From a virus, in IMG/VR virus record IMGVR_UViG_3300029787_000124, positions 1 through 39,889 of that record: a DNA stretch of 39,889 bases; one strand, given 5' to 3'. A model generated the notes under the pieces. It was not told where the DNA came from. It did not search any database and saw only the letters and a list, made by a program, of their open reading frames with translations. Below are positions 11,365-37,575 of the stretch, in pieces (position 1 is the first letter of the stretch; each line of letters begins with the position of its first letter). The position numbers and the translations under genes were made by a program.

Positions 11365-12281
11365 TAACAAGGCTCCTCATTGTTGGTTGAATACAAATCT
11401 CTATTCAACCTAACTCTTGCTGCACTCGTGCGGACGGCGTCTTCATTAATATTTAGTTCCTCAAGAACTTCGTCCGGAATATCTGAGTCAGTTACAATGT
11501 TCATAAAGTATTCAATGTTATTAACTGTTGGAGCAATAAACTCAGTGGGACTTTCAGGTGTGAAGCTTAATTGTGTGTACTCATCGGAAGTAGAGCCCGA
11601 TAGGAACACCTCAAACTCAAAGTTTTCTTTCTCGAACGGAGTGTTTTCCTCTTGCAATTCTACCATCAGATAATTCTCTTTTAAAGCCAGGAATATATTG
11701 GTTCCATCAAGATGTTGGGTTATGGACTCATCAGTCAAATCACCAAACTCGTAAAAGGTTTCATAATCAATAGTTATATCAATTTGAGGAATCGGTTGAA
11801 TATAGTCATCTTCGTTCAAAGTACGGCCCGAAACTGACGCTGTTGGATTCGACAGCAGCTCTAGCTGCCACGCAGGAGCACTTTGTTCATTCAGGGATGA
11901 TCTGCCAAGCGGGTATGCATCAAGCTTGCCCTTGTCGCCGTATGGCTGCTGCTGATATATCTCCACATACTCTGCCGGATCAGAAGTTTGTCCACCGATG
12001 GTGCTATTAAAAGACGAGGAAACATTGTCAATAAACCTGCTGACTCTTGTCTCAGCACCTTCTCGGGTGGGGATCGCTCTCAACTTAGGGGTGTCGCTCT
12101 GAATTCTACCCTCTGCACTATTTTGAGTCTCCTCGAATCCGGAGCCGCTGACATCATACAGCACATCATCGTCAAAAAATGCATAGTATGTTGGGTTGAG
12201 CTGGCCGGCTGCGAGCCTGTCTTTGCCATAGTTGGTAAGCTTTACCTCTAGTACATCCTCTTTTTTATTGAAAAATTCCAT
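11364..12281 (-). CDS. conserved phage structural protein, LT-x-x-G-x-x-RLA-x-G type (305 aa)
   Basis: The N-terminus MEFFNKKEDVLEVKLTNYGK, then RLAAGQ and AFFDDDVLYD, recalls a structural family found in various phages and is paralogous to the start of the 308-aa protein at 4950-5876. The rest is strikingly acidic (many Glu/Asp, for example EENTPFEKENFEFEVFLSG), ends NNEEPC with a terminal cysteine, and has no membrane or enzyme signature. Both its start and stop are in TAATG overlaps, so it is tightly coupled between the 2936-aa giant and the 900-aa protein. That suggests the three are made in fixed proportion and assemble together. The specific role is unknown. Confidence 0.8.
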   Translation of the reverse strand: MEFFNKKEDVLEVKLTNYGKDRLAAGQLNPTYYAFFDDDVLYDVSGSGFEETQNSAEGRIQSDTPKLRAIPTREGAETRVSRFIDNVSSSFNSTIGGQTSDPAEYVEIYQQQPYGDKGKLDAYPLGRSSLNEQSAPAWQLELLSNPTASVSGRTLNEDDYIQPIPQIDITIDYETFYEFGDLTDESITQHLDGTNIFLALKENYLMVELQEENTPFEKENFEFEVFLSGSTSDEYTQLSFTPESPTEFIAPTVNNIEYFMNIVTDSDIPDEVLEELNINEDAVRTSAARVRLNRDLYSTNNEEPC

Positions 12282-18200: not shown

Positions 18201-21091
18201 ATAGGATCGGTGGAGGATGCTTTGAAGAAGTCGCCTCGGGCCGTATACTGCTTGTTCAGAATGTTTCCTAGCTCACCAAATGTTGTTAATTCAGCAGAAC
18301 CAGAGCTAAGATCATCGACAATGAACTGACCGCTGGCGTTGGAGCCTGTGTTTGTTAAGAACTCCCAGTTGAATGCAAGCGTATCAAACTTGGAGATGTC
18401 CATATTGGAACCAGACATCTTAAACTCATACGCATACAAGTGTGGCTGGAGCGCACCGAAGTTCTCGGTGTCGAGGATGTGACCCTCAAGGGCCTCATCG
18501 TTAATGTAGTCAAGCCAATATCTACACGAATTGACCTTAACGTCGGCCGACTGAAGGACGGCGCCGGTGAAGTTAGTTCTATGTGCGCCAACATATACAC
18601 GCTTGCTGCCTGTAACAAAACCAGCTGGTGGGGCTGTCACAGTTCCAGAAACAGTAAACTCCTGGAGAATCTCGCCGGCTTCGGCCTGAACACCATGCAG
18701 CTCGACGACATAATCGTTATCGGTGCCGTGAACGAGGTTTGTAAGTGGATATTGGTCTGGTCTAATTCGAACAGAAAGGTTCCACCTGGTGTTGTTGTAT
18801 ATGTCTTCATACAACTGTGATTCCAGCGATGGGACAAAGCCTCCCGCAGTGCCGGTCAAGACGAACTTAGCGTTCGTTGAGTTGATCTCATCACGAACGG
18901 CGTAAACCTGGAAGTTAACCCTATCTTCGGGATCCCAAGTGGTGTCCGTTCCAGAGTAAACAGTCCCGTGGGTTCCGAACAACGATGCACTGATGGTGTT
19001 TGTATCAACAAATGCGCGGGAGTCGCGGGCTAGCTTGAGTGGGAGCAGGACCTCTGTTTCCAAAGTGGAGGCATAGCCATTCTGTAGATCAGCGCTAGCC
19101 GTTACAAAACCAACAGAATTAGAGTTTGTAGTGTCCTTGTAGTTGTAGATTACAGCTGTCTGGCCATCAGCTGTGTTGAAGTTAGCAAATTTGTCAGCAA
19201 CAATAACGTTTCTTCTGTTGTTGTCGAGGTCATACTTGATATTATCGGCGTACATATTGAGCTTAACCAGCTCATCATCAATGCCAAAACAGCGAATAAG
19301 GTTTCTGAATCCCTTCTCTGTGCCCTTTGTCTTATAAATGTAGTTTAAGTTGTTGTAAATATTCTGATAAATCGTGTTCTTGATGTCATGAAGCGACTTC
19401 TCATAAACCCTATCTTCACTTCTGTCAGCAAGCTTTTCCAATACATCGGAATCTAGGAAGATTTCCGGGGCAACAAAGCCATATGAGTTTAGAAGTCTCT
19501 CAGCAAAAGGCAGCGGCTTATCACTGCCACTGGGGTATTCAATATTTTTGAGACTGTTTAGGCTGTCAATCTGTAAGTGCAGGGTATCAAAATAGCTAGA
19601 AATAATCTGTGTAAGATACTTAACATTCTTTGTACCCTCTTGATCCTCTTCTGTAATCCATGAAGGGATTGAGTTATAGATCGCCGCGTTGTTCTCGTTA
19701 TCGTGTGCAGAACCAGATGTCTGAAGACCGGCGGCGATGGACTTTACATCCGGGTGGAAGGCATAAATAATCGGGTCCTTGAACTCCTTGGTGGCCGCAT
19801 TAGAGAGGACAATAGCAGATCCAGTCTGTCGCGCTCCAGCCGCATACCCAGTCCACGAACCATTCGAGAAACGACCAGAGTAATCCAACACTGTGCTATC
19901 GGTGGAGCTGGTCCCGGTGATTCCTTCGTTAAACTTAAAGTACACACCAAGGTCAATGTTAGCCGACTCTTCAGTGGTCGTAAATGGAGTGGGGTCTGTA
20001 TTGACGCCGCCACCTACCTGTGTAAACCAGAAGCGGCCGATCTCTTCGGAGCTTCGCTGTGTCTTCCAGTAGCGTAACTCATCAAGCGAGGCAGAGAGCT
20101 TACCGGCAGAGGCATTTGCTGTGGAGCTAGATGGTGGCGCAATGAGAGCACCAATGTAGGCGCGATGTGAAGAACCATCAGTATCGTTGACGGCTTTGCC
20201 GAGAAGTTGCTGCCTATTGAGGTTACCATCGACGTAGAATCTTGTCTCTATAACATCATTATCAGTGTCAGACTTAACAGTAACTGCGTAGTGATGCCAG
20301 TTGCCGTCTGCGACGGAAGCTGTTGTGATGCTGGAAGCTGCGACTGAAGTTGACTGAAAACCTGTTGTTCCCGAAATTACCGTCAGGAGCCATGGATCCG
20401 CACCCGATGTGGTGCCTGACAGCTCCAATCTGAATCGTAGATAATCTGCGGAGGACGAGAGGGCGCCGTTCCAGAGGTCAAAGATAACCTCTTTTTCTGT
20501 CGAGCCAGTGATAAATTCGGTCTTGTTCAGCCAGAACTCTAATGTGGCGCCGTGAGTTGTTAGATCAAACTCTAGGTTTGACCCTCTGTTCATTGATGGC
20601 TCGTAGTAGTTAGAGCCAGTAAACTGAGTTGACTTTGGGGACATCCCGTTAGGGTTGGCATTTGGGCCGCCCTTTACAAAGATGTACTCGTCATCAGCCG
20701 GGTCTCCATACCCGTCTGTCATTGTACGCGTGGAGCCCCAGTCTAGTCCGTGGATAATGTATCCATTTGTTCTTGGATACAGATTGTCGAATACATGGAG
20801 ATCGATATAGGTTGAAGCGTTTCTCCATTCCAGCTTCTCTCTTAACGAGCCATCATAAGGATACTCGTTGTAGATCCTCTTTACAGACTGATCATAATAT
20901 TCTTCAGCGGAGCCATAGCGAGCAAAATTCTTCGGGTCGGAGAAGTCTACTCTTGGAATAAACCTTTCCTCTTCGATGATATCTTGTTCATGGTAAGCGA
21001 CGGACTCAACTTGAGAGCCGATTTGATCCGCCGTTTTACCGGAAAGAGATTTGATTTTATCAGTGATCTCAAAATACTTTTTAAGGCTCAT
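12281..21091 (-). CDS. giant virion protein with LamG lectin-like domain (2936 aa)
   Basis: This single 8.8-kb reading frame is the largest gene here. Residues ~1-150 are a conserved-looking N-terminal region (RFIPRVDFSDPKNFARYGS, WRNASTYIDLHVFDNLYP). Residues ~171-360 form a LamG/concanavalin-like beta sandwich (LEFDL, ATLEFWLNK, GNWHHYAVTV, RFYVDG, SASLDELRYW), a fold that often binds sugars. Near a third of the length there is a helical stretch (KFYEFYKWFDTSLSLMLGQL, then RTVVENHVLERPKYQRKFPF). The following ~1700 residues are beta-rich with many Asn/Gly/Ser loops. The last ~93 residues (12284-12562) are Thr/Ala/Pro-rich, ending RGGGGSRGGGY. Its place between the DNRLRE-like and 305-aa proteins suggests a baseplate-linked host-recognition structure; the function is inferred. 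Confidence 0.82.
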   Translation of the reverse strand: MSLKKYFEITDKIKSLSGKTADQIGSQVESVAYHEQDIIEEERFIPRVDFSDPKNFARYGSAEEYYDQSVKRIYNEYPYDGSLREKLEWRNASTYIDLHVFDNLYPRTNGYIIHGLDWGSTRTMTDGYGDPADDEYIFVKGGPNANPNGMSPKSTQFTGSNYYEPSMNRGSNLEFDLTTHGATLEFWLNKTEFITGSTEKEVIFDLWNGALSSSADYLRFRLELSGTTSGADPWLLTVISGTTGFQSTSVAASSITTASVADGNWHHYAVTVKSDTDNDVIETRFYVDGNLNRQQLLGKAVNDTDGSSHRAYIGALIAPPSSSTANASAGKLSASLDELRYWKTQRSSEEIGRFWFTQVGGGVNTDPTPFTTTEESANIDLGVYFKFNEGITGTSSTDSTVLDYSGRFSNGSWTGYAAGARQTGSAIVLSNAATKEFKDPIIYAFHPDVKSIAAGLQTSGSAHDNENNAAIYNSIPSWITEEDQEGTKNVKYLTQIISSYFDTLHLQIDSLNSLKNIEYPSGSDKPLPFAERLLNSYGFVAPEIFLDSDVLEKLADRSEDRVYEKSLHDIKNTIYQNIYNNLNYIYKTKGTEKGFRNLIRCFGIDDELVKLNMYADNIKYDLDNNRRNVIVADKFANFNTADGQTAVIYNYKDTTNSNSVGFVTASADLQNGYASTLETEVLLPLKLARDSRAFVDTNTISASLFGTHGTVYSGTDTTWDPEDRVNFQVYAVRDEINSTNAKFVLTGTAGGFVPSLESQLYEDIYNNTRWNLSVRIRPDQYPLTNLVHGTDNDYVVELHGVQAEAGEILQEFTVSGTVTAPPAGFVTGSKRVYVGAHRTNFTGAVLQSADVKVNSCRYWLDYINDEALEGHILDTENFGALQPHLYAYEFKMSGSNMDISKFDTLAFNWEFLTNTGSNASGQFIVDDLSSGSAELTTFGELGNILNKQYTARGDFFKASSTDPIDKDFVVSSKLNLPENVQSQDMVRVLNAQEQDVFTTESRPINYFFAFEKSMYQTISEEIINYFATLRDLHNLIGDPVEKYRTDYKQMAYMRRKFFEKVGNDELDFDKFYEFYKWFDTSLSLMLGQLVPASADFADTVRTVVENHVLERPKYQRKFPFLQREGGVDLEGTLTSSNASAPSRPEPGSPSMVYLANTAITRRQIGTSNPTRFKEYKFNHAPLSGANAHLPWQRYRQGTGSASDPRAGILAALNSTYTRMIGAPVNVNFGAVQTVGGVLRHSSNKPNFTFAAAAPYGPNVDQPSTNIPVNIMLSFDTDIEQLVDTPDVYFANRKQRLGFGLNPSQNRSGSEDLKFDGNMYAPFSLYSSSVQTGYNAAIVESYSTGAMITNLHNDFVNSTDTGLQGPFTEKFVGGRFYRHAELNDGTDRRTNRPEGFRLLLGLGYPPTLEVPVGASGALGIVAPNYPFPDSPAGSAPDGFLPETPTAQRFRDETAKRPVNIKNILMSTGSTAVRLSGTIVHNQIGNYQKNYQVIQTAGRTINDPFFKDQSITFAADPETTATRGRFPLGTATSSTANTGGDIDFTLPDRTGANSNETVFVNLFSSPGSFEVLSRGYLDPAHEELSVYNASPYRNRGIISHGMSGSASLDPDEANTIAVVDQIDKNRGLNQLATLHAGRFGSDAAYGSVPAASYVTVPSWHKTNRNRGRRPELSGTHTLFTGSHFDNLFVQHAIPRSLQQYTWVTASLGQNQIIYSNNRPTCFSASSLDELTQTGSYSNVTFVGLNTRLIDPVSASAHVLGFPSSSNASSSYINADFFPGNPLDNEADLLNVLTTMRNGAFGYPTWKQIRTGETKTARTLIRTNQIGYLPLPERLPSGPGRPQPAQGLQPNNFIDLTEAPISLNASPITFALEDNTANSDPANNMVVTVPFRNQIDYFSHNELNNFYNLKSDPSNLNSYNTILDFTLSSSLSVVVSYTENLYPADINMFDDRVRRRTGFTIDNAWNDDRTQRSLIGPRIARSGISGFPGLISSQGVNVESASVFTLDARLFFTTELGTVPTGSQTSAPFATGLGAGELLNHYSRYATLFEVDGDTKHANIKAAATYAALVPAGSSSATDPRVSQSPLVYAGDALWQAGDQSGKAPHQNYTSYADRIALAGKDHSIVPEFRISELIATYVDDQSSDFLAEIDNIFSLTGAALPDSSKENFYKTYTNADFLKYFSVIDEDLNDQRSAPLKIKRDKVSLRCNAITKFLPYKGFYPAERTVELATILSQSYGQYIEIAGVGGSTGREMVLRTFLEPLYAPGIMYNTIKSGLAVSNYVLVNTGSDASTVKGTLSPPICSGAISPLPEGTVQYREMLNPKGNDPTLGENNGYLVQKLPFETLQRPLAFMDTGRLSGSGAMFDTGVSSGSDALPNHALSTIGAGAIGLDFIKINNGKRLYELAIDNFLCETTNFFMDGLASFRSNREDQFGTVESGSTYRMRIDMFRTLDADLKVDRDSFDLYARESAFGYPLGQGEAPGTTQTASFNHVVPSYYHGRGTVDYTFVAPTTGRPTLDEILANTSISFTTEYPYDVIDQCTMNIGDSINLTDFFTEVPENTVEQKKVWLIQSKFETPVLNFANVSYTAPTASFVGPDLSSSADIKINGMWHQYGTAPTADNEGIFMKIREGAETAGFKDLARLVGFETGRPARIGQPKQANLLEEAVVAIPFKTVNNRRKFFPVQEDNGRLAAITALMEKYIFPPRFDFVLNETVDPILMYGFEFSQAVSSKDITDMWQNLPPSIGESFQQKEVVIDDQQVLDLLINNSENIEWLVFKVKKRGASSYNKFRRSLVTEDTSALPDEIGNYSYNWPYDYFSLVELVKMDETVQYASQDLLDPSDPTGITPTSTRSATPPQPTTSRAPIASTTSRAPVTSEPATTRAAPARAATATTAAPVTPAAPAAPTAPTTTTTAQVTAAPRTTRTRRGGGGSRGGGY
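12477..12522 (-). repeat. 27-bp in-frame tandem repeat in the giant protein tail
   Basis: The 19-base sequence GGGGCCCTGCTAGTGGTTG occurs at 12477-12495 and again at 12504-12522, a period of 27 bp. Translated on the minus strand it gives two nine-residue units, TTSRAPIAS and TTSRAPVTS. They belong to the Thr/Ser/Pro/Ala-rich tail of the 2936-aa protein. The period is a multiple of three, so copy number could change by slippage without breaking the frame. Confidence 0.8.
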
Positions 21092-21098
21092 ACTTTAA

Positions 21099-22628
21099 TT
21101 ATTCTTCAACTCTAAATTTGAACGTTTGTGGTTGCTCCTGCCAGTCTCCTATGCTGTCATTGTAGTAAGCAAGTCTGATTTCATACATGTAATCAGTTTC
21201 CAAAAGGGACATATCCAAATCGAAGTAACTTCCTTCCTTATCATACGACAGATAGGTGCTGAAATCAGATCCTGTTCCGTATGACACTGCTGGTGTATTA
21301 TCAATAACCCTGTGGATACTGAAGGATGCACTTTCAATAATCTCAGTTGGATTATTGGCCGTTGCAACTGTGTAGAGGGTTGGGGACCAGTCCTTGTCTC
21401 GGACAAAGAATCTGAATCTTGCCTTATCCTGCTTAGAATAAACTTTCTTGAGGTTCTTACACGATGTAATCCTGTTAAACGTTGGGGCGCTGTCATACTC
21501 TCGGAGAGTCTCAGGGAAGAACGATCCAGTGAAATACTCAACTCCTCCGGAGTGCCAGACATCATGAATCTCTTGGAGCGGCGTAGAAGCCGCTGTGAGG
21601 GCCACGGAGCACGAATAGATACCAGTGCTCACAAAACTCGCTGTAGTGTTCAGATCGCCGTCTGCGGCCGTTGTACCACCAAGTGAGATCGCTAACTTTG
21701 ATCCGGTTGGAGTTCCAAAAGAACTTGAATAGAAAGAAACCAACAGATCGTTTGTTCCAACATTTGGAAGGTTTCGCAAACGGCCTCGAACGTAGTTGTA
21801 TACATAGAGGTTATTTAAGTTAAATGGAGCCTCTGCGCGGGACGATGAGTAGTAGAAGTTCTCTCTATCATCTGTGACACGGGAATCATATCGCGCTTCG
21901 AGAACTGGCCTCTTGAAGAAGAACTCTGTAGACCGAGCGAAGAACTTTTTGGTATAATAAGACTCTGTTGCGCCATTGATGTTCTGCAACACAGACCCTG
22001 ATGTTGTACCCAACGAGGAAGAGAAGTATGCTTCCTGCGAAGCAGTTAGACGAATACCGAAACCATAGTTGTTATATTTACCACCTTCTTCACCGATAAT
22101 CCAGTTTTCCACCACTGTGGTAACATCAACCTCCATGTCCTCATAGCCTTGCTGAAACCTGATGTTGTAGTTATCGGATGACAGATAGTCACCACCTATA
22201 TTGGTCCAGCCGGCAGTCGAGCTAGCAGAACCCCAGTTTGAAAACCCAAGGTCCTGGTAATTGTCCATGTCAAGGCCGGTGCCCTCATTCCAGGACTGTG
22301 AAATAGGAGCGACAACCAAGTTGAAGTCTTGTGGCAACGTGAATGGATGCTCTGCATTAAACATCTTAAGATAAAAAGAAACCGAGCCAGATGCTGGGAT
22401 AATCCCCGCGGATCTGTCCGCACTAATTGATGCGACAGGAAACTGGATAAGTATTCTGGACAGCTCTGAAGACTGACCATTGGAGCCAGAGTCCTGACCG
22501 TAAATTGAAAAGACTTCTAGAGAGTCAGCGAAGCCCATGTTTGAACCTGAACCTCTGGTTAGCAGGTTCGCTTCAAATGCATTTGTAATAGTGTTATCGG
22601 CGCTTGCCGTATACCTTGTAATAGCCAT
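21099..22628 (-). CDS. DNRLRE/CBM96-like virion protein (509 aa)
   Basis: The N-terminal ~230 residues fit the DNRLRE-type beta-sandwich pattern. ILIQFPV is followed by SFYLKMFNAEHP, then APISQSWNEGTGLDMDNYQD, then VDVTTVVENWIIGEEG and NNYGFGIRLTA. These domains are found in surface and carbohydrate-associated proteins. The second half is beta-rich with a basic patch around residue 400 (SCKNLKKVYSKQDKARFRFF) and ends in YNDSIGDWQEQPQTFKFRVEE, again an Ig-like strand pattern. It lies directly downstream of the gp6-like wedge gene with a one-base overlap. It probably sits at the baseplate periphery or in a fibre; enzyme activity is not indicated. Confidence 0.75.
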   Translation of the reverse strand: MAITRYTASADNTITNAFEANLLTRGSGSNMGFADSLEVFSIYGQDSGSNGQSSELSRILIQFPVASISADRSAGIIPASGSVSFYLKMFNAEHPFTLPQDFNLVVAPISQSWNEGTGLDMDNYQDLGFSNWGSASSTAGWTNIGGDYLSSDNYNIRFQQGYEDMEVDVTTVVENWIIGEEGGKYNNYGFGIRLTASQEAYFSSSLGTTSGSVLQNINGATESYYTKKFFARSTEFFFKRPVLEARYDSRVTDDRENFYYSSSRAEAPFNLNNLYVYNYVRGRLRNLPNVGTNDLLVSFYSSSFGTPTGSKLAISLGGTTAADGDLNTTASFVSTGIYSCSVALTAASTPLQEIHDVWHSGGVEYFTGSFFPETLREYDSAPTFNRITSCKNLKKVYSKQDKARFRFFVRDKDWSPTLYTVATANNPTEIIESASFSIHRVIDNTPAVSYGTGSDFSTYLSYDKEGSYFDLDMSLLETDYMYEIRLAYYNDSIGDWQEQPQTFKFRVEE

Positions 22629-24427
22629 TACTGAATAGCTCCCTTAATGTCCACATTGGGGAACTTAAGTTCAAAGATAGCGTTATTCTGGGCCTCGATT
22701 CTTCGACCATCTGCTGATAGTGCTCCTTCAAAATCAAAGGATGACTGACTATACGATGTGCCGGTTCTTTCAACGATTTCTAAATCTACAACGTCGATGA
22801 TACCGTCGACCTTTTGAAGGACCTTGTAGAAGTCAGTTATGAGGATCGACTCGCCAATTTCATACTGATTCTTGAACAAAAATTCTCTCAATGCTGCGTT
22901 TGCGCGACTAATAACAGTGAATCGGTTTGCGGACAAATCAACGGCCGCAACATAGTTGATGCCAAAGTTGACGATCTCAGCGTCCAAAATATCGATTGTG
23001 TCGTTTACAACTTTATACTGTAAAAGCCAATTTCTTAAGTTATTTTTAAGAGTTGTGTTCGCGGCCAGGAGCTTTCCGCTTGTATCCTGCGAAATAACAA
23101 AAATATTCAGGTTTCTCTTGAACTCGTCAAAGTCCCTAACCACTGCTGCTCTTTTGATTGATCCAAACTTGGCCGGCATGCCATAGCAGATCGACTGGTA
23201 GTCCTGAATTGTCACTGCTCTGTTCTGTGTTGCATAGAAGCCAAAGACTCTCTGCTTGATCTCCTCAGAGGACGGCAGCGAGATATCACCAACGAAAGGC
23301 TCTTCGTTTAGAACTTCTAGCGAAGTAAGAACACCGTTACGGAGTGTTTGTGACAGAGATCCTTGGGATGTAAAGCGCACCAATGGGCGATCCACTCCTG
23401 TAATCGAATTGACAGCGGCGTTCACATCGTTTGCGAGGTTGACTCTGTATCCGATTCTCAGAGTTGTGTTGGATGGGGCGATACCGAACTTATCTGTGCT
23501 AATGAGCTTAGTTGGGTCAAAATCAATGTCGGTGGTGTAATCTCGACCATTAAGATCCAAAACAAGGTTAGATGGATCTGTGATCGAGTTAGACAACAGT
23601 TCAGTATCCGAACCATATCCAAACTGCAGGAATGTTCTATCCCCCTCACGCTCAACAGTAAAGCGTCGAGCAACTGGGACTGCCTTTAAAATGTTCGCAA
23701 CCGTTGAGTTAGTCGATGTGTTTGTGTTTCTCACACCCTTGTAGACAACATTCTGAGATAGATGATCTACTTCAATATACTCGTGACCCTCGGAATCTGT
23801 AACCGAGATAACTTCTGCCACTCGGTTGTTCTGGAGTTCTACTCTGAGGAACCTCTGGAAATTCCCTACCTCTACTTCCTTGAACAGTGTTCTTCCCGAA
23901 ACTGCACGACCCTGGGCTCTAATGACAAAGTTCGTAGGATTACCTGTTGAGGAGTCCACTGTTCCCACCACAACCTGATTTGTGGAAACAGAGAAATCAA
24001 CGTCTTCGATAAGTGTGTATAGGCCACCTCCGGTGGAGGAAAAGATCGAACCGGCGCGGAGGACCGGAGCGTAGGTCAGGTTTGGACCGACTGTCGAAGT
24101 GTCAGATGGAACTTGAACGTAAAATGTGAGCAACCCAAAAGACGATGGGCTTGTATTCAACTTGAAACCCATCTGGCGAGCAAGTCGGACAACGTTGTTA
24201 TATTCTATAGAGGTCTCTAAAAACGACTCGTTTGTCTGATAATCTAAGTAAAATGACAGGATATCGCCGATGTAGGACACCGTATCCAGCATCAAAGAAC
24301 CGAAAGACGCTTGATTAAAGTCCTTGTAGGTATCAGGATAGTATCTTTTCGCGTAGTTTTCCAGATCCCTGCGGATAGAATCAAAGTCGCGACTTGTATA
24401 ATCAATTGGTTGTAGTTTTTTGGCCAT
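22628..24427 (-). CDS. gp6-like (baseplate J family) baseplate wedge protein
   Basis: The protein has 599 aa, near the 660 of T4 gp6. The N-terminus (MAKKLQPIDYTSRDFDSIRR, then FNQASFGSLMLDTVSYIGDILSFYLDYQTNESFL) is the hallmark of gp6/gpJ-type wedge proteins in phages and contractile injection systems. The middle has the beta-rich repeat typical of the family (YIEVDHLSQNVVYKGV). A later section contains QNRAVTIQDYQSICYGMPAKFGSIKRA, the baseplate J segment. In T4, gp6 forms the ring that links wedges around the hub and couples to gp25 and gp53. The gp25-like gene is immediately upstream, matching the conserved gp25-gp6 pairing. Confidence 0.9.
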   Translation of the reverse strand: MAKKLQPIDYTSRDFDSIRRDLENYAKRYYPDTYKDFNQASFGSLMLDTVSYIGDILSFYLDYQTNESFLETSIEYNNVVRLARQMGFKLNTSPSSFGLLTFYVQVPSDTSTVGPNLTYAPVLRAGSIFSSTGGGLYTLIEDVDFSVSTNQVVVGTVDSSTGNPTNFVIRAQGRAVSGRTLFKEVEVGNFQRFLRVELQNNRVAEVISVTDSEGHEYIEVDHLSQNVVYKGVRNTNTSTNSTVANILKAVPVARRFTVEREGDRTFLQFGYGSDTELLSNSITDPSNLVLDLNGRDYTTDIDFDPTKLISTDKFGIAPSNTTLRIGYRVNLANDVNAAVNSITGVDRPLVRFTSQGSLSQTLRNGVLTSLEVLNEEPFVGDISLPSSEEIKQRVFGFYATQNRAVTIQDYQSICYGMPAKFGSIKRAAVVRDFDEFKRNLNIFVISQDTSGKLLAANTTLKNNLRNWLLQYKVVNDTIDILDAEIVNFGINYVAAVDLSANRFTVISRANAALREFLFKNQYEIGESILITDFYKVLQKVDGIIDVVDLEIVERTGTSYSQSSFDFEGALSADGRRIEAQNNAIFELKFPNVDIKGAIQ

Positions 24428-24438
24428 AGTTTATTTCT

Positions 24439-24837
24439 CTAAATAGGTTGATCGACATCAATTTGCAGTAATGTTGATAGCTGAAGGGGCAATATAGTGA
24501 AAGATATCGAGACAGACAAGCTATTGGGGAACAAGTCTGGATTTTGTTCGGGAATTTGGAACTCAACTTTGTCTATCTGAATATAACTCAGGTATTTTGC
24601 TGTTTGCTTGCGAATATTGTTCTCTATTGTGGTGTAAGTGCTTGAGTCGTTTTGCTCAAACAAGTATGCTTTAAGCCCAACTCCGAATCTTGGATCCATT
24701 ATCCTCTCGCCAGGGACTGTCAGGATGAGCATTTTTAGATTTTGCCGGGCTAAATCTTCAAAGTTAGTGTTCAGTTCGTAGGGACCAAATACTTCGCTCA
24801 CCACAAGCGGTAGCTTTGGTGATAATCCTGATGCCAT
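24439..24837 (-). CDS. gp25-like baseplate wedge protein
   Basis: At 132 aa this is the length of T4 gp25 and the related TssE/GPW_gp25 family. The signature region is residues 41-57, VPGERIMDPRFGVGLKAYL, where related proteins have an E-P-R-type motif; here Glu is replaced by Asp (M-D-P-R-F-G). The C-terminal half contains the characteristic ordered strand section (YIQIDKVEFQIPEQN, SLSVSISFTILP). In T4, gp25 binds gp6 and the sheath-initiator region of the wedge. It lies 11 bases from the gp6-like gene. No lysozyme activity should be assumed, despite the older name of the family. Confidence 0.9.
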   Translation of the reverse strand: MASGLSPKLPLVVSEVFGPYELNTNFEDLARQNLKMLILTVPGERIMDPRFGVGLKAYLFEQNDSSTYTTIENNIRKQTAKYLSYIQIDKVEFQIPEQNPDLFPNSLSVSISFTILPLQLSTLLQIDVDQPI

Positions 24838-26351: not shown

Positions 26352-29300
26352 TTATGGCCCAACCATAGGCGGAATAGAAGGAGTTGAAAAATTGTCCTGT
26401 GAGTACTGCAGAAGTCCTTCTGATTCTGCAACAGGCGGGATAAGTGATGGTGGCGGTTCAGGTGGGCCGCCAGCTGGTGTATAACCCAGATCAATTAGCA
26501 AATAAACATCGTTTCCTTTTTTGAACCAGAGCTTGAAGTGTCTGTTAGAGTCGATTGGGTCACCAAGAATCTCCTCTATAGCTTCAGCGGCGGTTGGCTG
26601 CTCCAGCGTTGTATCCAGGCGACCGTTGATCTGATATCCATAAAACTCAGGGCCCGAAGGAATGGGCGGGTTGAAACTGAAATCCATATACTGAAACCTA
26701 ACCTGCGCGACGACGTTCCTCATTTCAACGTTTGCATACTGAGGATACAGGGCGGCCACCTCCGCCTGAGCTACACTGAGTACTGTAAACTCATCGTCGT
26801 CGATATCATTGCGTGCGGTGTACACCGATACCGCATTATTTGAGGTATTAATAGATACATGGCCGTTAACATATCTTAGTTCACTGCTGGTATATGGCGC
26901 ATTGATTAGAGTAAAATCACTGGTGTCATATTCAATTGGAGCAAGGTTATTTTCTTGTCTTTGTAGAGTGGTTAAGTTTTCGTACGTTTGAGCTGCCTCC
27001 TCAGATGCTGTTGAGCTGTCTGCATAAATGTTCTCAACTCTCAATGTCATCATCAATCCAACTTCAGGAATGTTCAGAACCTCAGCTGTCAGTGAAGATT
27101 CCTCGATGTTTGATAATATCTGACTGATCGCTTCAGGTGTATCGGTCTCGACTGTCAGGCCAGGAAGTGTCCGCAACACAGACTCATCAAAAGATAATTG
27201 GTTAGTGTTTGGGAGCGCCTTGCGGAGAGCGTTGTTGATTGCCAGCCGGCTGCGATCTATTCGATCTGTGATAATAAAGTCTAAGATCTCATCGAAACCA
27301 AAAAAGGTGGACTCAGTAGTGACCGAGAACTCAGTGCCGTCAGGGATTGCAACGGTGCCGTCCTGATAGAGAATGCCACCTTGGTTAACTACAGGTATTC
27401 TCTTAGTCTTCGTATTGAAATACGAGACCAGATCCAAGCGGACCACATTGCCCAATTGTGGGCCGTTCTGGTCAAAGTAAGCTAGCAGTGACTGCAATAT
27501 CTGACCTCTGATGAAGGCAAACACAAAGTTATCGCGATCGAGGAGACCGTCGATGTTATAGGCCGACAGAACAAAGATGTTCTTAATAATAACCTCAGCG
27601 ATGTGGACCTGAACCAGGAGCTGATACATGCCGTATTTGATCACGTTTCTAATCTTAGAGCTTAGAGGGATGTCATCTGCACAACCCTCCTTATACTCAT
27701 CCATCATCTGCTGAATAATCCCGTCTATATCGAGGAGATCACCTAACTCAGATGGCGGGCAGTTTTCTGTTTGAGTGAAGAAGTTTAGCGACTGAAGTGT
27801 CGCAGCGTCAAATATACCATTGTTTAAAACATAATCAAATGCATTATCAACAAGCTGACCATATGCTTGCGGGAAGTCACTGTAGTATACCTCCAGCCCA
27901 CTCTCAGTATCAGGGGAATCCATTTCGCTAATGATTGCCTCTGCAAACTTATATACAAAGGCATTTGCGGTGTCACCCAGACTGTTAACCGAAGAGTCGT
28001 TATATTCGATCTCCGAAACTGTCGCCGTCTTTGAGCCACCGATGATTTCGTCTTCTGCGTTATTAAGGAAAAACCTGCGCAGATTAAAGTCAGCGATCAG
28101 CTGAGGCTCTTCATAGTCTTCGGGCTTTGCGGGATACGTTATAGCAAGAGAGTTCGGGAAGCCCGAAGGAGGCGTACCAACCTGTTCTCCAACACCTGTA
28201 TTCGCAAACGACTCAAGGAATGAATTCTGAAGGTTCTCCGCAAGGGGCTGGAACGTTGTCGTTGTGGAAGCTGCTTGCTGGTCGATGGCGAATGGTGCCT
28301 GCAGACTTGAAGGACCCCATTCAGGGTAACCAGGGTGATTATGGGATGGAATGTAGATACCATTTTCTGTATCGTGAACACCATCGCCGACCTGTGGGCT
28401 TTCTATTGTTACATCGAGGCGCCCATTAATTTGATATCCATAAAACTCAGGACCTGTAGGAACGTTATATTGCACATCGTAATTTTGATACCTAACTTGT
28501 GGCACAACGTTTCTCATCTCAGCGTTAGGATACTGGTTCATAATGAAGAGTTGTGCTTCTTCCAAAACATAGTATTCATCTTTATCATCTAGATCATTAA
28601 ACGATAGGTAGACCGAGATGCCATTATTTGAGGTATTGGTAGATACATGAGTATTGATGTATCTTAATTGATTGCTAGTGTATGGTGGGTCAATTCGCGT
28701 AAAGTCGTTTATGTCATATTCATTGGCCGGAAGACCGGACTCTTGCCTCACAAGCGTCGAGTTCGGGGAAAAGATTGGCTCATCATCTTGATGTATAACG
28801 TAGCCCAATCCGCTTGGATCGTTGGCAGGGTTGACGTAGTAGTGGAAGTGCTGCCCACTTTCGTTAAGGGATGGCAGAAGGGAGATGTCATTCTCCTCCG
28901 CAAACCTAAACAGGAGCTGCAGATCTTTGTACGCGTCGGGTTCGCCGGCTGCAACAATATACGAACTGTAAAACCTCTGCGTCAGTGTTTGAAGTGTTTG
29001 AGAATCATACTCAAACGTCTCGGGGATTATGTAATCCCTAAGAGCATCGATAAAGTTTTGATTAAACTTATACGTTGTGAAAACCGGGTTTTCTATGTTT
29101 GCTGGGTTGTCCAGTCCTTGAATGTTGTCGATGACGTTTTGTATCGCGTCTCTGAAGTTAGGGTCATTGGAAGCATCCGTTAGGGCGCCGGCCATTGTGC
29201 TGACGGTTCCAATTGCGGCGGCCTGGTCTGTGCCCAGAATACGAGCGATATCGACATCGCATTCTTGTAGTCTCGTCTCAAGATCATCGAAACCATCCTT

Positions 29301-31298
29301 GACGTCTTGTAGGACACTCACAATTTTTTGCAAGAACTCCGGAGAGATACCTGGGCCCAGGTCTCTTTCTATACCTCGAAGCTCATCAGCATACTGAATA
29401 CCGCTAAGCACTGGGGACTCATTTGCCTGAACTGGCTGCAGCATAATCTCCTTCACTGAATCACCAGAGGCAATAAACTGGAGCAGCACTGTTTCTGCCA
29501 ATACATTGAATGTCTCTGGTACTGACTTACCGATTGTTGGATCTAGGAACTCTGAATCTGGGCAATCGAGATCAAGGTCTGGAAGATCAATCACCAGGCC
29601 GTCTTCTATAAGTCTTAACAGATCGTTAATATTTTCGTCATCAAAGATCCCTGCATCTAGACATACGTTGTCTTGATTAAGGGCATAAAGGTCGTTGGCA
29701 ATTTGATTACAGAGGTCGGTTACGTCAACGCTTGCAGACAGGTCTTCGAAGAACCCTAGAATTTGGGTTATTGAGTCCAGCCTCTCGCCAACTACGGTAT
29801 CTGAATACTCTGCATTGAAGTCTAATATCTTATCGATTAGATCGGGTGGTGCATCGTTTCTATTCAACATCAGTGTGCAAATATCAATCGAGCTTAGTAT
29901 AGATGAAAGGGCGCTCAGGTAGTCCAATGTCTGTTGAACCGAGAGGCCATTCTTCGCTGACAGTTGGTCGAGCTGTGATGTGGCACCTACCTGTGGCAGA
30001 CCATCCAATTGCGGATTGGAGTTATCGTTAATAAAGCTTGTGATGTCGTTCTGACCATAATCGGTAGATCGTGGTGATGTAGTTGGGCAATTTTCCCTCA
30101 GCAAGTCGGCAAGCTGCTTGATGATCTCCAAGACAATCTGCTGAACTGTATCGATCAGAACTTTCTCGATTTGTTTCCACAAGTCCCCAGAGATCGTAAA
30201 TGGTTTGAACTTCTCAAAATCAATTTCCGGCAAGCTAATTGGAGCGCGCTTTGGCAAGTCGGGGGGTATGTAAACTGAGGCTGCAGCACTTGTCAGAGCG
30301 TTAGCTGTAGCACGGCCGACTCTTGCAGCGGCTGCAGAGGCACCGAAAGTTAAGCACAAGAACGCTTCTTTTGCAATCTCATCAATTCCAAACTGTCGCA
30401 TGATGTATGCAACTTTTGGGTTCTTCTTCTGGATTAGACCCAATGGGCCCTGTTCAATAACATTAGCGATGGTATTTGAAACATCTGCTGCAGTTGTAAG
30501 AGCTTTGACAGACTGGGCTGCAGCGACTCTCTTAAACACCTCTGGATTGTCAGCGACTTCCTGCTTGAGCTTTCTGTATTCCTCCGATGTGAAGTAATCC
30601 TTGAATCCTTTTTCCAACTGATCAACGTTATTGATATCAATAAGGCCCTGATCTGATGCCACCCGGAGGAGTTCATTGGTCATATCCTTCTTGGGTTGGA
30701 GTTGGAAGTTCTCTATCAGGTCTCCTGTGAGTCCTAGCGAGTCTCTAACCGAGTCATCGTTCAGAAAGTCAAAGAAAGAATACGGGTTTTGTGTGTCGAT
30801 GTTACCCTGGAATGCTGTGAGCAGGTTCTGATAGTTTCTTAGGATCGCCAGAGTCAGCGGGTCTTTTAGTAGTTTGTTATTCTTGATGATCGAGAAGTAA
30901 CCCACGCGCAGAGGCTGACTTTCAATCGAATCCTCGACGAGGAGATAATCTATTCTAGACACAGCAAGCTTCCCGCGCTTCTTGCCAAAAATTATGGTGA
31001 TTGTATCAGCCTCGGAGAAATCATAGCTGGGGCTCTGGATCTTTGTCTGTTCCGACAGGATGGCCACAAGTATGTTTAGAATGCCCGTTGCCTGCAACTG
31101 CAGGGGGCCAAATGCAACATTGATGTCTATCTGTCCCTCAAAGCCACCATACTGTGTATCAAAGGACTTAAGACCATTGTTCAGAAGATTATTTTGGCTA
31201 CCGAGTGTCCCAACCGTAAGTGTGGTCTCTGAAATCTCTCCTACGATGCTCTGTTGTTCATTGAAGAACGCCAGGTTTGCATCGAAGTCAGGCATCAT
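26352..31298 (-). CDS. large tail/baseplate protein with internally duplicated domain (1648 aa)
   Basis: I start the gene at the ATG at 31298 (MMPDFDANLAFF), overlapping the previous stop (ATGATGCCTGA), with AGGGAGGA about 12 bases upstream; an upstream in-frame start would overlap the previous gene by over 100 bp. Residues ~1-230 are a mixed N-terminal domain (DTITIIFGKKRGKLAVSRID). About 230-780 is largely helical. Residues ~848-966 and ~1444-1567 are two copies of one domain (TLVRQESG ... GPEFYGYQINGRL). SGQHFHYYV occurs at 814-822. The C-terminus is proline-rich. The size invites a tape-measure guess, but the domain content and its position beside gp25 and the spike genes favour a hub or baseplate protein. 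Confidence 0.78.
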   Translation of the reverse strand: MMPDFDANLAFFNEQQSIVGEISETTLTVGTLGSQNNLLNNGLKSFDTQYGGFEGQIDINVAFGPLQLQATGILNILVAILSEQTKIQSPSYDFSEADTITIIFGKKRGKLAVSRIDYLLVEDSIESQPLRVGYFSIIKNNKLLKDPLTLAILRNYQNLLTAFQGNIDTQNPYSFFDFLNDDSVRDSLGLTGDLIENFQLQPKKDMTNELLRVASDQGLIDINNVDQLEKGFKDYFTSEEYRKLKQEVADNPEVFKRVAAAQSVKALTTAADVSNTIANVIEQGPLGLIQKKNPKVAYIMRQFGIDEIAKEAFLCLTFGASAAAARVGRATANALTSAAASVYIPPDLPKRAPISLPEIDFEKFKPFTISGDLWKQIEKVLIDTVQQIVLEIIKQLADLLRENCPTTSPRSTDYGQNDITSFINDNSNPQLDGLPQVGATSQLDQLSAKNGLSVQQTLDYLSALSSILSSIDICTLMLNRNDAPPDLIDKILDFNAEYSDTVVGERLDSITQILGFFEDLSASVDVTDLCNQIANDLYALNQDNVCLDAGIFDDENINDLLRLIEDGLVIDLPDLDLDCPDSEFLDPTIGKSVPETFNVLAETVLLQFIASGDSVKEIMLQPVQANESPVLSGIQYADELRGIERDLGPGISPEFLQKIVSVLQDVKDGFDDLETRLQECDVDIARILGTDQAAAIGTVSTMAGALTDASNDPNFRDAIQNVIDNIQGLDNPANIENPVFTTYKFNQNFIDALRDYIIPETFEYDSQTLQTLTQRFYSSYIVAAGEPDAYKDLQLLFRFAEENDISLLPSLNESGQHFHYYVNPANDPSGLGYVIHQDDEPIFSPNSTLVRQESGLPANEYDINDFTRIDPPYTSNQLRYINTHVSTNTSNNGISVYLSFNDLDDKDEYYVLEEAQLFIMNQYPNAEMRNVVPQVRYQNYDVQYNVPTGPEFYGYQINGRLDVTIESPQVGDGVHDTENGIYIPSHNHPGYPEWGPSSLQAPFAIDQQAASTTTTFQPLAENLQNSFLESFANTGVGEQVGTPPSGFPNSLAITYPAKPEDYEEPQLIADFNLRRFFLNNAEDEIIGGSKTATVSEIEYNDSSVNSLGDTANAFVYKFAEAIISEMDSPDTESGLEVYYSDFPQAYGQLVDNAFDYVLNNGIFDAATLQSLNFFTQTENCPPSELGDLLDIDGIIQQMMDEYKEGCADDIPLSSKIRNVIKYGMYQLLVQVHIAEVIIKNIFVLSAYNIDGLLDRDNFVFAFIRGQILQSLLAYFDQNGPQLGNVVRLDLVSYFNTKTKRIPVVNQGGILYQDGTVAIPDGTEFSVTTESTFFGFDEILDFIITDRIDRSRLAINNALRKALPNTNQLSFDESVLRTLPGLTVETDTPEAISQILSNIEESSLTAEVLNIPEVGLMMTLRVENIYADSSTASEEAAQTYENLTTLQRQENNLAPIEYDTSDFTLINAPYTSSELRYVNGHVSINTSNNAVSVYTARNDIDDDEFTVLSVAQAEVAALYPQYANVEMRNVVAQVRFQYMDFSFNPPIPSGPEFYGYQINGRLDTTLEQPTAAEAIEEILGDPIDSNRHFKLWFKKGNDVYLLIDLGYTPAGGPPEPPPSLIPPVAESEGLLQYSQDNFSTPSIPPMVGP
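26595..26969 (-). repeat. second copy of the duplicated domain in the 1648-aa protein
   Basis: Residues ~1444-1567. The segment runs from TLQRQENNLAPIEYDTSDF, through SSELRYVNGHVSINTSNNAVSVY and EMRNVVAQVRFQ, to GPEFYGYQINGRLDTTLEQP. It aligns without large gaps to the copy about 1.8 kb away. DNA identity is high in places; for example TGATATCCATAAAACTCAGG is shared exactly. Confidence 0.85.
28399..28757 (-). repeat. first copy of the duplicated domain in the 1648-aa protein
   Basis: Residues ~848-966. The segment runs from TLVRQESGLPANEYDINDF, through SNQLRYINTHVSTNTSNNGISVY and EMRNVVPQVRYQ, to GPEFYGYQINGRLDVTIESP. The unrelated sequence between the two copies shows the duplication was not in simple tandem, or was later separated by an insertion. 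Confidence 0.85.
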
Positions 31299-31686
31299 TC
31301 GAAAGCAGTTCCTCCCTCTTTTTGTCGAAGTTATAAACAGATCTAAAAATAACGACTGTTTTGTTCGATGGAGGGAATGTCTGGTAGAATGATTCAACAG
31401 TGATAGAATCTTGGATATCGAGCACTAGTTGATTTGCTAAATCAAGATCACCATTGGCCTCTGTTGCAAAATATTCCTCATCATATAGGGCAGAGTAAAA
31501 CTCAGGGAGGTATGATGTAATGAACTCGCGTGCTGCATCACGGATATTGGCGCTGTTGCCAACAATCTCGTCAGCACTATTGGCGCGGCCAACCTTCATT
31601 CGGACTTTGCTAGATTCACTTGACCGCTCATAAAACGGCACATTAAAAGTTTTACTTAGATATTTTTTTGTTATGATGGAAGTCAT
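31288..31686 (-). CDS. small baseplate-region protein of unknown function (132 aa)
   Basis: I do not recognise the family. The N-terminal third is basic (MTSIITKKYLSKTFNVPFYE, KVRMKVGR). The middle and end are acidic with an aromatic patch (LPEFYSALYDEEYFATEANG) and a last beta-like section (TVVIFRSVYNFDKK). There is no membrane segment and no cysteine. It starts eight bases after the spike-like gene and its end overlaps the start of the 1648-aa gene by 11 bp. Its size and position resemble small baseplate-assembly or tail-completion proteins, but nothing in the sequence proves that. Confidence 0.75.
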   Translation of the reverse strand: MTSIITKKYLSKTFNVPFYERSSESSKVRMKVGRANSADEIVGNSANIRDAAREFITSYLPEFYSALYDEEYFATEANGDLDLANQLVLDIQDSITVESFYQTFPPSNKTVVIFRSVYNFDKKREELLSNDA

Positions 31687-33867: not shown

Positions 33868-34168
33868 CTTCTTTGTTCTCGTTCAGAAGATCAAACAGTT
33901 GTTCCTTATCATCGTCAGTAAGGCCGACATTTCCTGTTTTTTGTCTCTGAAGGATGGCCGCGAGCTTCACCATCTGCTCATTTGAACGTTGAAGATTTTC
34001 AACAAACTTTGCCGCCAGAGGACCAAACTCTCTGCGGTCGTGTGAGGAAGTCGCCATGTCGGCCATAACATCCATTAGGAGTGTTTTGGCCATGGCACGG
34101 TCTTCCTTGATGTTCTTGGTGGTTTCCTCGATGTAGGTTTCTAAACTTAGATCTCGCTGTTTTCCCAT
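33857..34168 (-). CDS. small helical protein downstream of the late sigma factor (103 aa)
   Basis: The function is unknown. The protein is almost entirely helical and charged (ETYIEETTKNIKEDRAMAKT, then AAKFVENLQRSNEQMVKLAA), with an acidic C-terminus LTDDDKEQLFDLLNENKEDD. It overlaps the sigma-factor gene by 22 bp and the hub gene by 11 bp, so it is translated with both. The QLFDLL segment (residues 90-95) has the hydrophobic-plus-acidic character of sliding-clamp-binding peptides. T4 has a small late co-activator, gp33, that works with gp55 and the clamp. Whether this is such a protein is conjecture; a small terminase or assembly protein would also fit. Confidence 0.7.
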   Translation of the reverse strand: MGKQRDLSLETYIEETTKNIKEDRAMAKTLLMDVMADMATSSHDRREFGPLAAKFVENLQRSNEQMVKLAAILQRQKTGNVGLTDDDKEQLFDLLNENKEDDR

Positions 34169-34833
34169 TTTACTTTGAACGTCCTATATCTCTTTCGGAG
34201 TTTATTCAAGTTGTTAACCACCTGCTTAGTGTTTAACCCCGTGATCTCCCGAAGGTATAAGTAAATAGCTTTTTTATTGAAAATTTCTATTTGATCGGCG
34301 GAGTCTAGCAGGATTCGAACAGCCATGAGAACCTTTTTCTCGTTCTCCTTAATCATAAAGGAGTCCCAAGTCTCTATCTCGCTGTTGAGAGAAGTCCAAA
34401 ATTCTATCTCAGACCTTTTGTCATAGTATGTGATCTCGTCAGAAACCAGATCCTCGTCCACTTCATTAAGAACATCCTCCATGAAGACCTCTGTCTGAAG
34501 GCGCTTCTTGGTTCTCTTAACTTTGTGAATAAACCAGTTTTTGGTGACGACTGAGAAATATGAAAAGGCCTTCGAGCCCTTGTTGGGGTCATACTTGTTT
34601 AGAATGGTTGTGAGCCAAACCTTGCAGTCAGCTCGCAAATATTCAATATTTGGTAGTGTCGTAAAACGATAGGTGTAGATAATCTTATCTACCATGTGAT
34701 CAAACGCAGGCTGGATGTACTCCTCGTACAACTTAGATCGCAACTCCCTGTCATCTGTCAGGGCGTATTTAACTATTGCGTCCTCGTGTACCTGCGTAAA
34801 GTAATGATTTTTCTTGCTCTTCTTCCTCGGCAT
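34147..34833 (-). CDS. gp55-like late-transcription sigma factor (228 aa)
   Basis: Residues ~30-110 contain the sigma region-2-like core: LYEEYIQPAFDHMVDKIIYT, LPNIEYLRADCKVWLTTILN, then DPNKGSKAFSYFSVVTKNWF. This is the conserved pattern of T4 gp55-type sigma factors, which direct host RNA polymerase to short late promoters together with the sliding clamp. At 228 aa it is longer than T4 gp55 (185). The extra C-terminal part (~187-220, FNKKAIYLYLREITGLNTKQ, then NNLNKLRKRYR) looks like a helix-turn-helix. GAGG nine bases upstream supports the ATG, although the start lies 65 bp inside the preceding gene. It probably controls the structural genes that follow. Confidence 0.88.
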   Translation of the reverse strand: MPRKKSKKNHYFTQVHEDAIVKYALTDDRELRSKLYEEYIQPAFDHMVDKIIYTYRFTTLPNIEYLRADCKVWLTTILNKYDPNKGSKAFSYFSVVTKNWFIHKVKRTKKRLQTEVFMEDVLNEVDEDLVSDEITYYDKRSEIEFWTSLNSEIETWDSFMIKENEKKVLMAVRILLDSADQIEIFNKKAIYLYLREITGLNTKQVVNNLNKLRKRYRTFKVKWENSEI

Positions 34834-35765: not shown

Positions 35766-36599
35766 TTATGTCTCCTTAATAAAACAATCTTTGATTGCTT
35801 GCTTTGAATCTATTGTAGCAGACCAGCCAATATTTTTTAATTTAGCTGTATCCGCCTTTGTTGTTTTCACATCCCCTACACGTTCTGGGACGTAAGAGAA
35901 TTTGACCTGATTGTTATCTTCTACAATTTGCTTTATGTCGTTCAGAGAAATGACGGCGCCAGATCCGACGTCAAACCATTCTCCACCAAAGTCTTTATCA
36001 TAGTTCATGCAGAATACATTAGCCGCAACGATGTCATCTACATGAACAAAGTCTCTGCTTTGTGTTCCGTCCCCGTCTAAGCGGAGTGGGAGACCCTTGC
36101 TAATCATCTCCATCCATGCACAAATAACTGTTGAGTAGGATCCACCATACTCCTGATCTTCCGAGAAGACGTTGAAATAGCGCAAGCAAACCGTGTCTAG
36201 TCCATATAGCTGCGAGTATAATTTACACTCTTGTTCTGAGATTAGCTTGTGAAGGCCATATGGAGAGTTCGGACCATCTCCATCACCTAACACTGCTGAT
36301 GAGGAGCTGAAGATTACCCTTGTAACCCCATGGTTCTTAGCCCATTCTAGTAGGATGGATGTGACATAGGCGTTATGCCTGAATGTATAACTTGGCTGTT
36401 CTACAGAGTAATTGACTCTTGGCAGTGCAGCCATGTGAAAAACGTAATCAAAGTCTTCATCAGGCAAGCAGTTGGCTATATCCTCTCCCTCTTTAAGGTC
36501 AATGCCGCGGATATATGTTTCCGAAGAGCAATTTTCTTGTAGATGGGAGAGCAGATGCGAGCCAATGTAGCCTCTGTGACCCGTGATTAGGATTTTCAT
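35766..36599 (-). CDS. GalE/WbpP-like NAD-dependent epimerase/dehydratase (extended SDR)
   Basis: I begin at the ATG at 36599 (MKILITGHRGYIGSHLL), because the Rossmann strand starts there; an upstream in-frame ATG adds nine unrelated residues. The protein is then 277 aa. It has the NAD-binding G-x-x-G-x-x-G (Gly7, Gly10, Gly13), the serine run FSSSSAV (98-103), and the catalytic Tyr114-x-x-x-Lys118 (SPYGLHKLISE). LRYFNVF and SRDFVHVDDI are typical of UDP-hexose 4-epimerases and relatives. Substrate cannot be read from the sequence. Directly after the GDP-mannose dehydratase gene it could instead reduce or epimerise the GDP-4-keto-6-deoxy sugar, but its motifs look more GalE-like than fucose-synthase-like. 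Confidence 0.82.
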   Translation of the reverse strand: MKILITGHRGYIGSHLLSHLQENCSSETYIRGIDLKEGEDIANCLPDEDFDYVFHMAALPRVNYSVEQPSYTFRHNAYVTSILLEWAKNHGVTRVIFSSSSAVLGDGDGPNSPYGLHKLISEQECKLYSQLYGLDTVCLRYFNVFSEDQEYGGSYSTVICAWMEMISKGLPLRLDGDGTQSRDFVHVDDIVAANVFCMNYDKDFGGEWFDVGSGAVISLNDIKQIVEDNNQVKFSYVPERVGDVKTTKADTAKLKNIGWSATIDSKQAIKDCFIKET

Positions 36600-36600
36600 T

Positions 36601-37575
36601 TTAGAGTTCGTTTTGCCATCTCTCAATCATGTCATCCAGCAGAGTCTCGAAAGTGAACTCTGGTGTCCAACCCAAGACCTCTCTGGACTTGGAGGAGTCA
36701 CCCTTGAGGTATTTGAGTTCCTCTGGTCGCATGTACTTCGGGTTCTGGACGACATAATCGCGGTAGTCCATTCCTAGCTTGGTAAAGACTGTATCACACA
36801 GGTCTCTAACAGAGTGAGCTTCGCCGGTTGCAACGATAAATTCGTCAGCAACATCATGATTGACAATCATGTGCATGGCTCTCACATAGTCCTGGGAGTG
36901 GCCCCAGTCACGGTAAGAATCCATATTGCCAAGCTCAAGGTTTTCCTGCAGACCCTTCTTGATAGCCACGGCTCCCTTGACAACCTTGTTGGTGACGAAG
37001 TTAGAACCTCGGCGTGGGGACTCATGATTAAAAAGAATACCGTTGCATGCATGAAGGCCGTAAGCGTGCCTATAATGCCTTACAAGGTTGTACCCCATAA
37101 CTTTAGCGCAGCCGTAAGGACTAACGGGATTCATGGGCGTTGTGAGCCTCTGGAAGCCATCGTCGTCGACGGAGTTGCCAAACATCTCGGAAGAGCTGGC
37201 CTGATAGAACTTAGCTCCGGGGCAGATCGTACGGTAGACCTCTAGAAGGTGCAGGACACCAAGAGCATTTGTCTGAATTGTAAAAGAAGGCATATCGAAG
37301 CTGACGCGGACATGACTCATGGCGCCAAGGTTGTAAATCTCATCTGGCATTACCTGCGATACGATTCTAACCAACGAAGGATAGTCTAGAAGATCTCCAT
37401 AGTAAGCGTGGACGTTCTCTCCCAGGCCGTACTTGTGGAGTCTGTGGTTCTGGTTCTCCGCGACCGAGTGGCGACGGACAATGCCGTGGACTTCGTATCC
37501 CAACGACAGTAGGTGCTCTGTCAAATAGCTGCCGTCTTGGCCAGCGATTCCTGTAATCAGTGCTTTCTTCTTCAT
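36601..37575 (-). CDS. gmd: GDP-mannose 4,6-dehydratase
   Basis: The protein has 324 aa, the normal length. It carries the NADP-binding motif ITGIAGQDGSYL (Gly9, Gly12, Gly15), the active-site run ASSSEMFG (Glu130), the catalytic Tyr154-x-x-x-Lys158 (SPYGCAKVMGYN), and the family signature FNHESPRRGSNFVTNKV (182-198). SYRDWGHSQDYVRAMHMI and YMRPEELKYLKGD are also characteristic. The enzyme converts GDP-D-mannose to GDP-4-keto-6-deoxy-D-mannose, the branch point for GDP-fucose, GDP-rhamnose and GDP-perosamine. Its start overlaps the aminotransferase stop (ATGA), and the epimerase gene follows after one base. The intact active site argues that it works. Confidence 0.95.
   Translation of the reverse strand: MKKKALITGIAGQDGSYLTEHLLSLGYEVHGIVRRHSVAENQNHRLHKYGLGENVHAYYGDLLDYPSLVRIVSQVMPDEIYNLGAMSHVRVSFDMPSFTIQTNALGVLHLLEVYRTICPGAKFYQASSSEMFGNSVDDDGFQRLTTPMNPVSPYGCAKVMGYNLVRHYRHAYGLHACNGILFNHESPRRGSNFVTNKVVKGAVAIKKGLQENLELGNMDSYRDWGHSQDYVRAMHMIVNHDVADEFIVATGEAHSVRDLCDTVFTKLGMDYRDYVVQNPKYMRPEELKYLKGDSSKSREVLGWTPEFTFETLLDDMIERWQNEL

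Follow-up and report, generated by a model that had tools for sequence, protein, structure and literature searches.

A duplicated domain that probably behaves as a swappable part at two sites of a large protein encoded near phage baseplate genes

A domain of about 120 residues occurs twice, at two different internal positions, in a large protein encoded in a virus record of 39,889 bases (the entire stretch of DNA analyzed here, hereafter the window). Judging from sequence comparison with relatives of this protein in other viral contigs, the duplication is accompanied by variable occupancy of both sites, transfer from one site to the other and replacement limited to one site in pairs of near-identical phages. 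The reading that we favor, with moderate confidence, is that this unit is a swappable accessory domain that occupies two permissive sites in a probable baseplate or tail-tip protein and changes the interaction of the phage with its host.

The duplication, which was reported in a first-pass annotation of this sequence, is real. The copy at site 1 (28392..28757, minus strand; residues 848-969) and the copy at site 2 (26592..26969, minus strand; residues 1444-1569), both delimited by alignment and profile, are 62% identical over 121 pairs and are separated by about 480 residues. When residues 701-1100 are aligned locally, as protein, with residues 1101-1648, the best alignment pairs 847-988 with 1443-1587, with 79 of the 140 aligned residues identical and a BLOSUM62 score of 375, compared to a maximum of 67 and a mean of 44.5 among 200 shuffled controls, so that mere chance short matches, a possibility that the annotation itself had raised, are excluded. 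All four motifs quoted there are found in the sequence, and the DNA of the two copies is similar as well, being alignable across the unit and 64% identical by codon. Furthermore, a profile made from the units yields strong scores in the window for precisely the two copies.

The protein of 1648 residues described in the annotation does exist as an open reading frame (26352..31298, minus strand) that contains both units, but this is only the major portion of a gene found intact, at 1779 and 1780 amino acids, in the related contigs L006 and L015, in each of which it is a single ORF. In the window, the initial ~131 residues are encoded by a separate 132-aa ORF (31288..31686, minus strand) that overlaps the larger one at 31288-31298; the gene is split because of a short deletion near 31296 relative to L006, which is 98% identical to the window, hence the length of 1648 residues. 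This frame break is either a genuine lesion or an assembly error, and intact copies of the gene exist in relatives. Upstream of a 499-aa ORF, a gp25-like baseplate wedge gene (24439..24837, minus strand; Pfam PF04965, E 2.3e-12; PHROG 261) and a gp6-like baseplate wedge gene (22628..24427, minus strand; PHROG 219, E 9e-20), the 1648-aa ORF occupies a position that suggests, from gene order, that the large protein is a tail or baseplate component of the virion. The gp6-like protein is closest to those of Microcystis phage Mel-JY01 (29.7%) and the Flavobacterium phages immuto (29.3%), over 99% of the length. The start of the unit (positions ~13-43) shows weak profile similarity to the N-terminus of this gp6-like protein (E 0.3-0.9 across relatives) that is probably due to chance. 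Elsewhere in the window, a late sigma factor family match (phrog_234, E 1e-6) lies at 34147-34833, near the baseplate genes; two adjacent genes (35766-36626 and 36601-37575) both match phrog_540, a nucleotide-sugar epimerase family, perhaps as a result of gene duplication; and a 2936-aa protein (12281-21091) combines a concanavalin A-like (Laminin_G_3) domain at residues 176-351 with a C-terminal tail rich in Thr, Ala and Pro.

Searches of broader collections returned no relatives. Among 50,697 phage records, there was no relative of the 1648-aa protein or of the protein of contig L003 at the thresholds used and no match to two of the units; a profile of the protein had no match in three whole phage records (a search run with no positive control), and the conserved core had none among genome contigs. 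The whole 1648-aa protein matched no Pfam family at E up to 1, the C-terminal half matched no PDB sequence, and a literature search by titles and abstract openings listed no paper on the protein described here.

Structural modeling supports the unit as a separately folding domain. The model (query, copy 2 of L015; seven sequences) has a pLDDT of 88.5 and a pTM of 0.80, and its predicted order of elements is helix, helix, two strands, helix, two long strands, that is, an alpha/beta arrangement in which helices of 8 and 12 residues alternate with strand pairs; a model of the C-terminal half of the protein (910 residues) is poor (pLDDT 50.4, pTM 0.33), and both units show the same element order in it. 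A Foldseek search of PDB and BFVD with the unit model gave no match at E up to 0.001, the best VIA match had a Z of 5.1 and, across Pfam, PHROG, PDB, Foldseek and VIA, there was no match to a family or a PDB sequence and no clear one in fold, so the unit may represent a small, hitherto undescribed domain family. Matches resembling ribosomal proteins (VIA Z up to 5.1) were set aside as lying within the noise described for the tool, and RbfA, by sequence (E 0.15), as noise level. LAGLIDADG homing endonucleases and intein-type mobile elements are marked by a characteristic motif and fold; this identity is disfavored given that the unit has no Pfam or PHROG match and that no LAGLIDADG motif is present in the unit sequences read. 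As for the fold, an I-SceI chain appears once, without significance, among the Foldseek matches listed (E 0.41, TMq 0.29), and none is among the 50 VIA matches listed.

How, then, is the unit distributed among relatives? Scans of viral contigs identified the gene in 22 of them, a total that includes the window and counts repeated loci of one contig once, and occupancy was determined by profile search and reading. Both sites are occupied in three of the 22 (the window, L006 and L015) and neither in seven (L009, L010, L012, L013, L014, L018 and L042). Single-copy relatives, a search for which the annotation had proposed, are thus found among viral contigs: 10 carry the unit at site 2 only (L007, L008, L017, L019, L023, L024, L025, L016, L051 and L052, where the units of L051 and L052 are very divergent and weak, E 2e-4 to 3e-4, and were assigned to site 2 by position and alignment, and the sequence of L023 does not reach site 1) and two at site 1 only (L011 and L026, the latter incomplete and holding only the end of its unit). 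A further profile match, in L027 (E 1e-3), was dropped as belonging to an unrelated 726-aa protein. When nine whole records were searched with the unit profile, five had matches, seven in total, all in this gene. In a core tree of 12 proteins from which the sites were excluded, the window-type phages (L006, L015) are joined by L024 and then L007, and every one of these has the unit at site 2; L009, L010 and L014 form a group with no unit; and L011, with its unit at site 1, groups with L012 and L013, which have none. These groups are well supported, but L016 and L018 sit on long branches and their placement is unsure. Depending on the phage, unrelated filler or a His-rich segment can also be found at site 1. 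By all appearances from these alignments, the unit is an insertable module.

In the window, copy 1 interrupts such a His-rich segment (QHxH, VIH, VH, HxHP) that is uninterrupted in L009, L010 and L014. Its left half, with HxH, lies at 28758..28856 (minus strand; residues 815-847) and its right half, also with HxH, at 28299..28388 (minus strand; residues 971-1000); when joined, these flanks score 79 against the segment of L010, compared to at most 58 in 1000 shuffles and to 47 and 50 for the single flanks. From the motif, one might guess that the segment binds metal. Copy 2 lies close to the C-terminus. With 38% difference between the copies, surroundings that are unlike and separate presence and absence in relatives, the sequences argue for a module that is attached independently at two places. 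The annotation suggested two equal binding sites, which would be putative.

The clearest case of movement between the sites is provided by L011, in which site 1 contains a segment of ~450 nt that is not in L013, although the two are 83-90% identical on either side of it, and that L012 likewise does not have. This insert is 83% identical to the site-2 unit of L023 and L024 over 428 nt; within the unit, nucleotide identity is 0.88-0.89, and the amino acid identity to site 2 of L024 is 0.896 over 115 aligned residues, whereas the core proteins of L011 and L024 are 0.56 identical. At four-fold sites, 39 of 52 are shared between the units of L011 and L024 compared to 78 of 242 across the whole genes, and the similarity of the insert to the site-2 source drops soon past the unit edges. 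Since the insert is absent from L012 too, the simplest reading of these sequences is that the unit was transferred into L011 from a site-2 source. As the contigs were assembled from metagenomes, some of the junctions could be imitated by chimeras, though the right junction of L011 recurs in L026 (99.9% identical), which comes from a different metagenome record. At the left junction (about 4273-4335 of L011), a stretch resembling the unit start is present twice, imperfectly (by eye), which may bear on the route of insertion.

Replacement in place is seen in comparisons of close relatives. Between L016 and L051, nucleotide identity per 50 codons is 0.90-1.00 up to L016 residue ~1448, 0.36-0.75 from ~1448 to ~1719 (~270 residues, unit included) and 0.97 thereafter, a pattern indicating that the site-2 unit is exchanged together with its surroundings. 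Between L051 and L052, identity is mostly 0.90-1.00 but drops to 0.54-0.83 across site 1 and to 0.71 in the final 33 residues; at about residues 330-420 of its partial ORF, L052 has extra site-1 sequence with an HxH motif (HIHGG) that is not in L051. Furthermore, the core of L024 is 0.70 identical to the window type and 0.67 to L007, whereas its unit is 0.58 identical to that of L007 and 0.40 to window copy 2, a mismatch that in-place replacement may explain.

The hypothesis that appears to us to accommodate these observations is the following. The unit would be an accessory domain that can be inserted, together with short linkers, into a large protein whose gene lies a short way upstream of those for the baseplate wedge; site 1 would be a permissive hypervariable stretch after residue ~870 (L006 numbering), site 2 would be located near the C-terminus, and both may be exposed loops. 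Through recombination with other phages, the unit would be gained, lost and swapped at each site; in one case, a site-2 version would have moved into site 1, and both sites would have come to be filled in an ancestor common to the window phage and L015. Of these elements, the exchange is evident from the sequences, whereas exposure and host binding are inferred. The unit might bind something on the host surface or shield the tip, such that swapping would alter the host interaction, and gene order together with variability points to a surface-displayed, baseplate-associated role in adhesion. Under this scenario, the domain probably behaves as a swappable part that helps the virus to vary what the host meets. 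An alternative that we consider unlikely, albeit not negligible, is that the unit is a structural spacer or oligomerization domain, the two copies of which set the geometry of the tail tip or baseplate, with the variation reflecting co-adaptation of partners. The location of the gene beside gp25- and gp6-like genes is compatible with such a role, and so is the predicted well-ordered structure with long strand pairs, but entire clades do without the unit at one or both sites and yet keep the core, and near-identical phages differ mainly at one site, unlike what would be expected of a fixed scaffold.

The substitution pattern bears on another alternative, namely that the unit is nearly neutral, with recombination-prone permissive loops gaining and losing sequence and the unit persisting since it is folded and harmless. 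Between the window and L006, nonsynonymous differences are found at 13 of 570 sites in the units and 7 of 2292 in the core (p 1.3e-5), whereas synonymous ones, at 18 of 159 and 54 of 684 sites, do not differ significantly (p 0.16), the unit counts in this comparison being rounded down. Relaxed constraint fits this faster amino acid change as well as adaptation does, and the mixed content of site 1 also speaks for near-neutrality. However, dN/dS in the units is still about 0.2 in this same comparison, hence the units remain constrained, and site 2 in divergent phages repeatedly holds homologous units, not random sequence, so that near-neutrality seems to us improbable.

Returning to the swappable domain, when were both sites filled? 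The annotation took the duplication to be fairly recent or else kept similar by conversion, and comparison with relatives contradicts the former view and gives no significant signal for the latter. In L006 and L015, as in the window, each site has its copy of the unit, so the duplication predates the split of these phages. At four-fold sites, the two window copies match each other at 13 of 26 positions, no better than window copy 1 matches its counterpart in the clearly different phage L015 (18 of 34); synonymous sites therefore differ between copies about as much as between phages, and a recent duplication is accordingly rejected. Because the units of the window, L006 and L015 are of one type, distinct from those of L024 and L007, the duplication is most simply placed after the split from L024 and before the split of L015, with the caveat that the unit tree does not settle the branching order of the window-type copies. 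An internal duplication held similar by gene conversion, giving two putative equal binding sites, is highly improbable: lineage-specific residues (5 within-genome, 6 orthologous and 1 cross site) and a run of six adjacent window/L006 differences in copy 1 that all match copy 2 (suggestive only, the chance of a single run being 0.0076 for a run picked after seeing the data) speak for it, but at the DNA level 12 sites fit within-genome sharing and 7 the cross pattern between the window and L015 (p = 0.18), and the two sites vary in occupancy separately across phages.

A bolder extension, which we regard as a long shot, is that the gene works as a display system with two sockets, in which a common pool of unit cassettes circulates among these uncultivated phages and is copied into either of the two non-homologous sockets of one virion protein, generating combinatorial variation of the tail tip; if true, this would be comparable with antigenic variation by cassette exchange. 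More generally, a single domain shifts here from one internal position to another in the same large protein, and with empty sites, donor-like sequences and near-identical phage pairs all available for comparison, it becomes possible to test which positions of such a protein accept insertions and whether host range depends on them.

Among known systems, domain exchange is familiar from phage tail proteins, mostly at fibre ends, and HxH metal-binding segments occur in phage tail fibres. The segment that is split by copy 1 in the window resembles the latter in its paired HxH motifs and differs from them in being split by an inserted domain and in lying outside any annotated fibre. The BACON domain is an all-beta, Ig-like sandwich, whereas the unit is predicted to be alpha/beta, and no curated (Pfam) profile matches the 1648-aa protein. 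As described for crAss-like phages, copies of the BACON domain form tandem arrays (PMC6949934); the movement of the unit resembles the spread of this domain, but unlike in those arrays, the units are about 480 residues apart. Phage domain mosaicism, as outlined by Smug et al., is the presence of a fragment of at least 50 aa that is far more identical than its surroundings, pointing to recent shuffling, in tail and baseplate proteins or close to them, and 'contemporary' mosaicism there requires that the fragment in common span at least 50 aa and be at least 50% identical (Smug et al. 2023, PMC10684548). The 115 residues with 89.6% identity between site 1 of L011 and site 2 of L024 exceed both values. 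Unlike mosaicism in the sense given in that account (PMC10684548), the proteins here are homologous along the core (56% between L011 and L024), and it is only the two positions taken by the fragment within one protein that are non-homologous. This is domain shuffling of a known type in which the two-site pattern is unusual.
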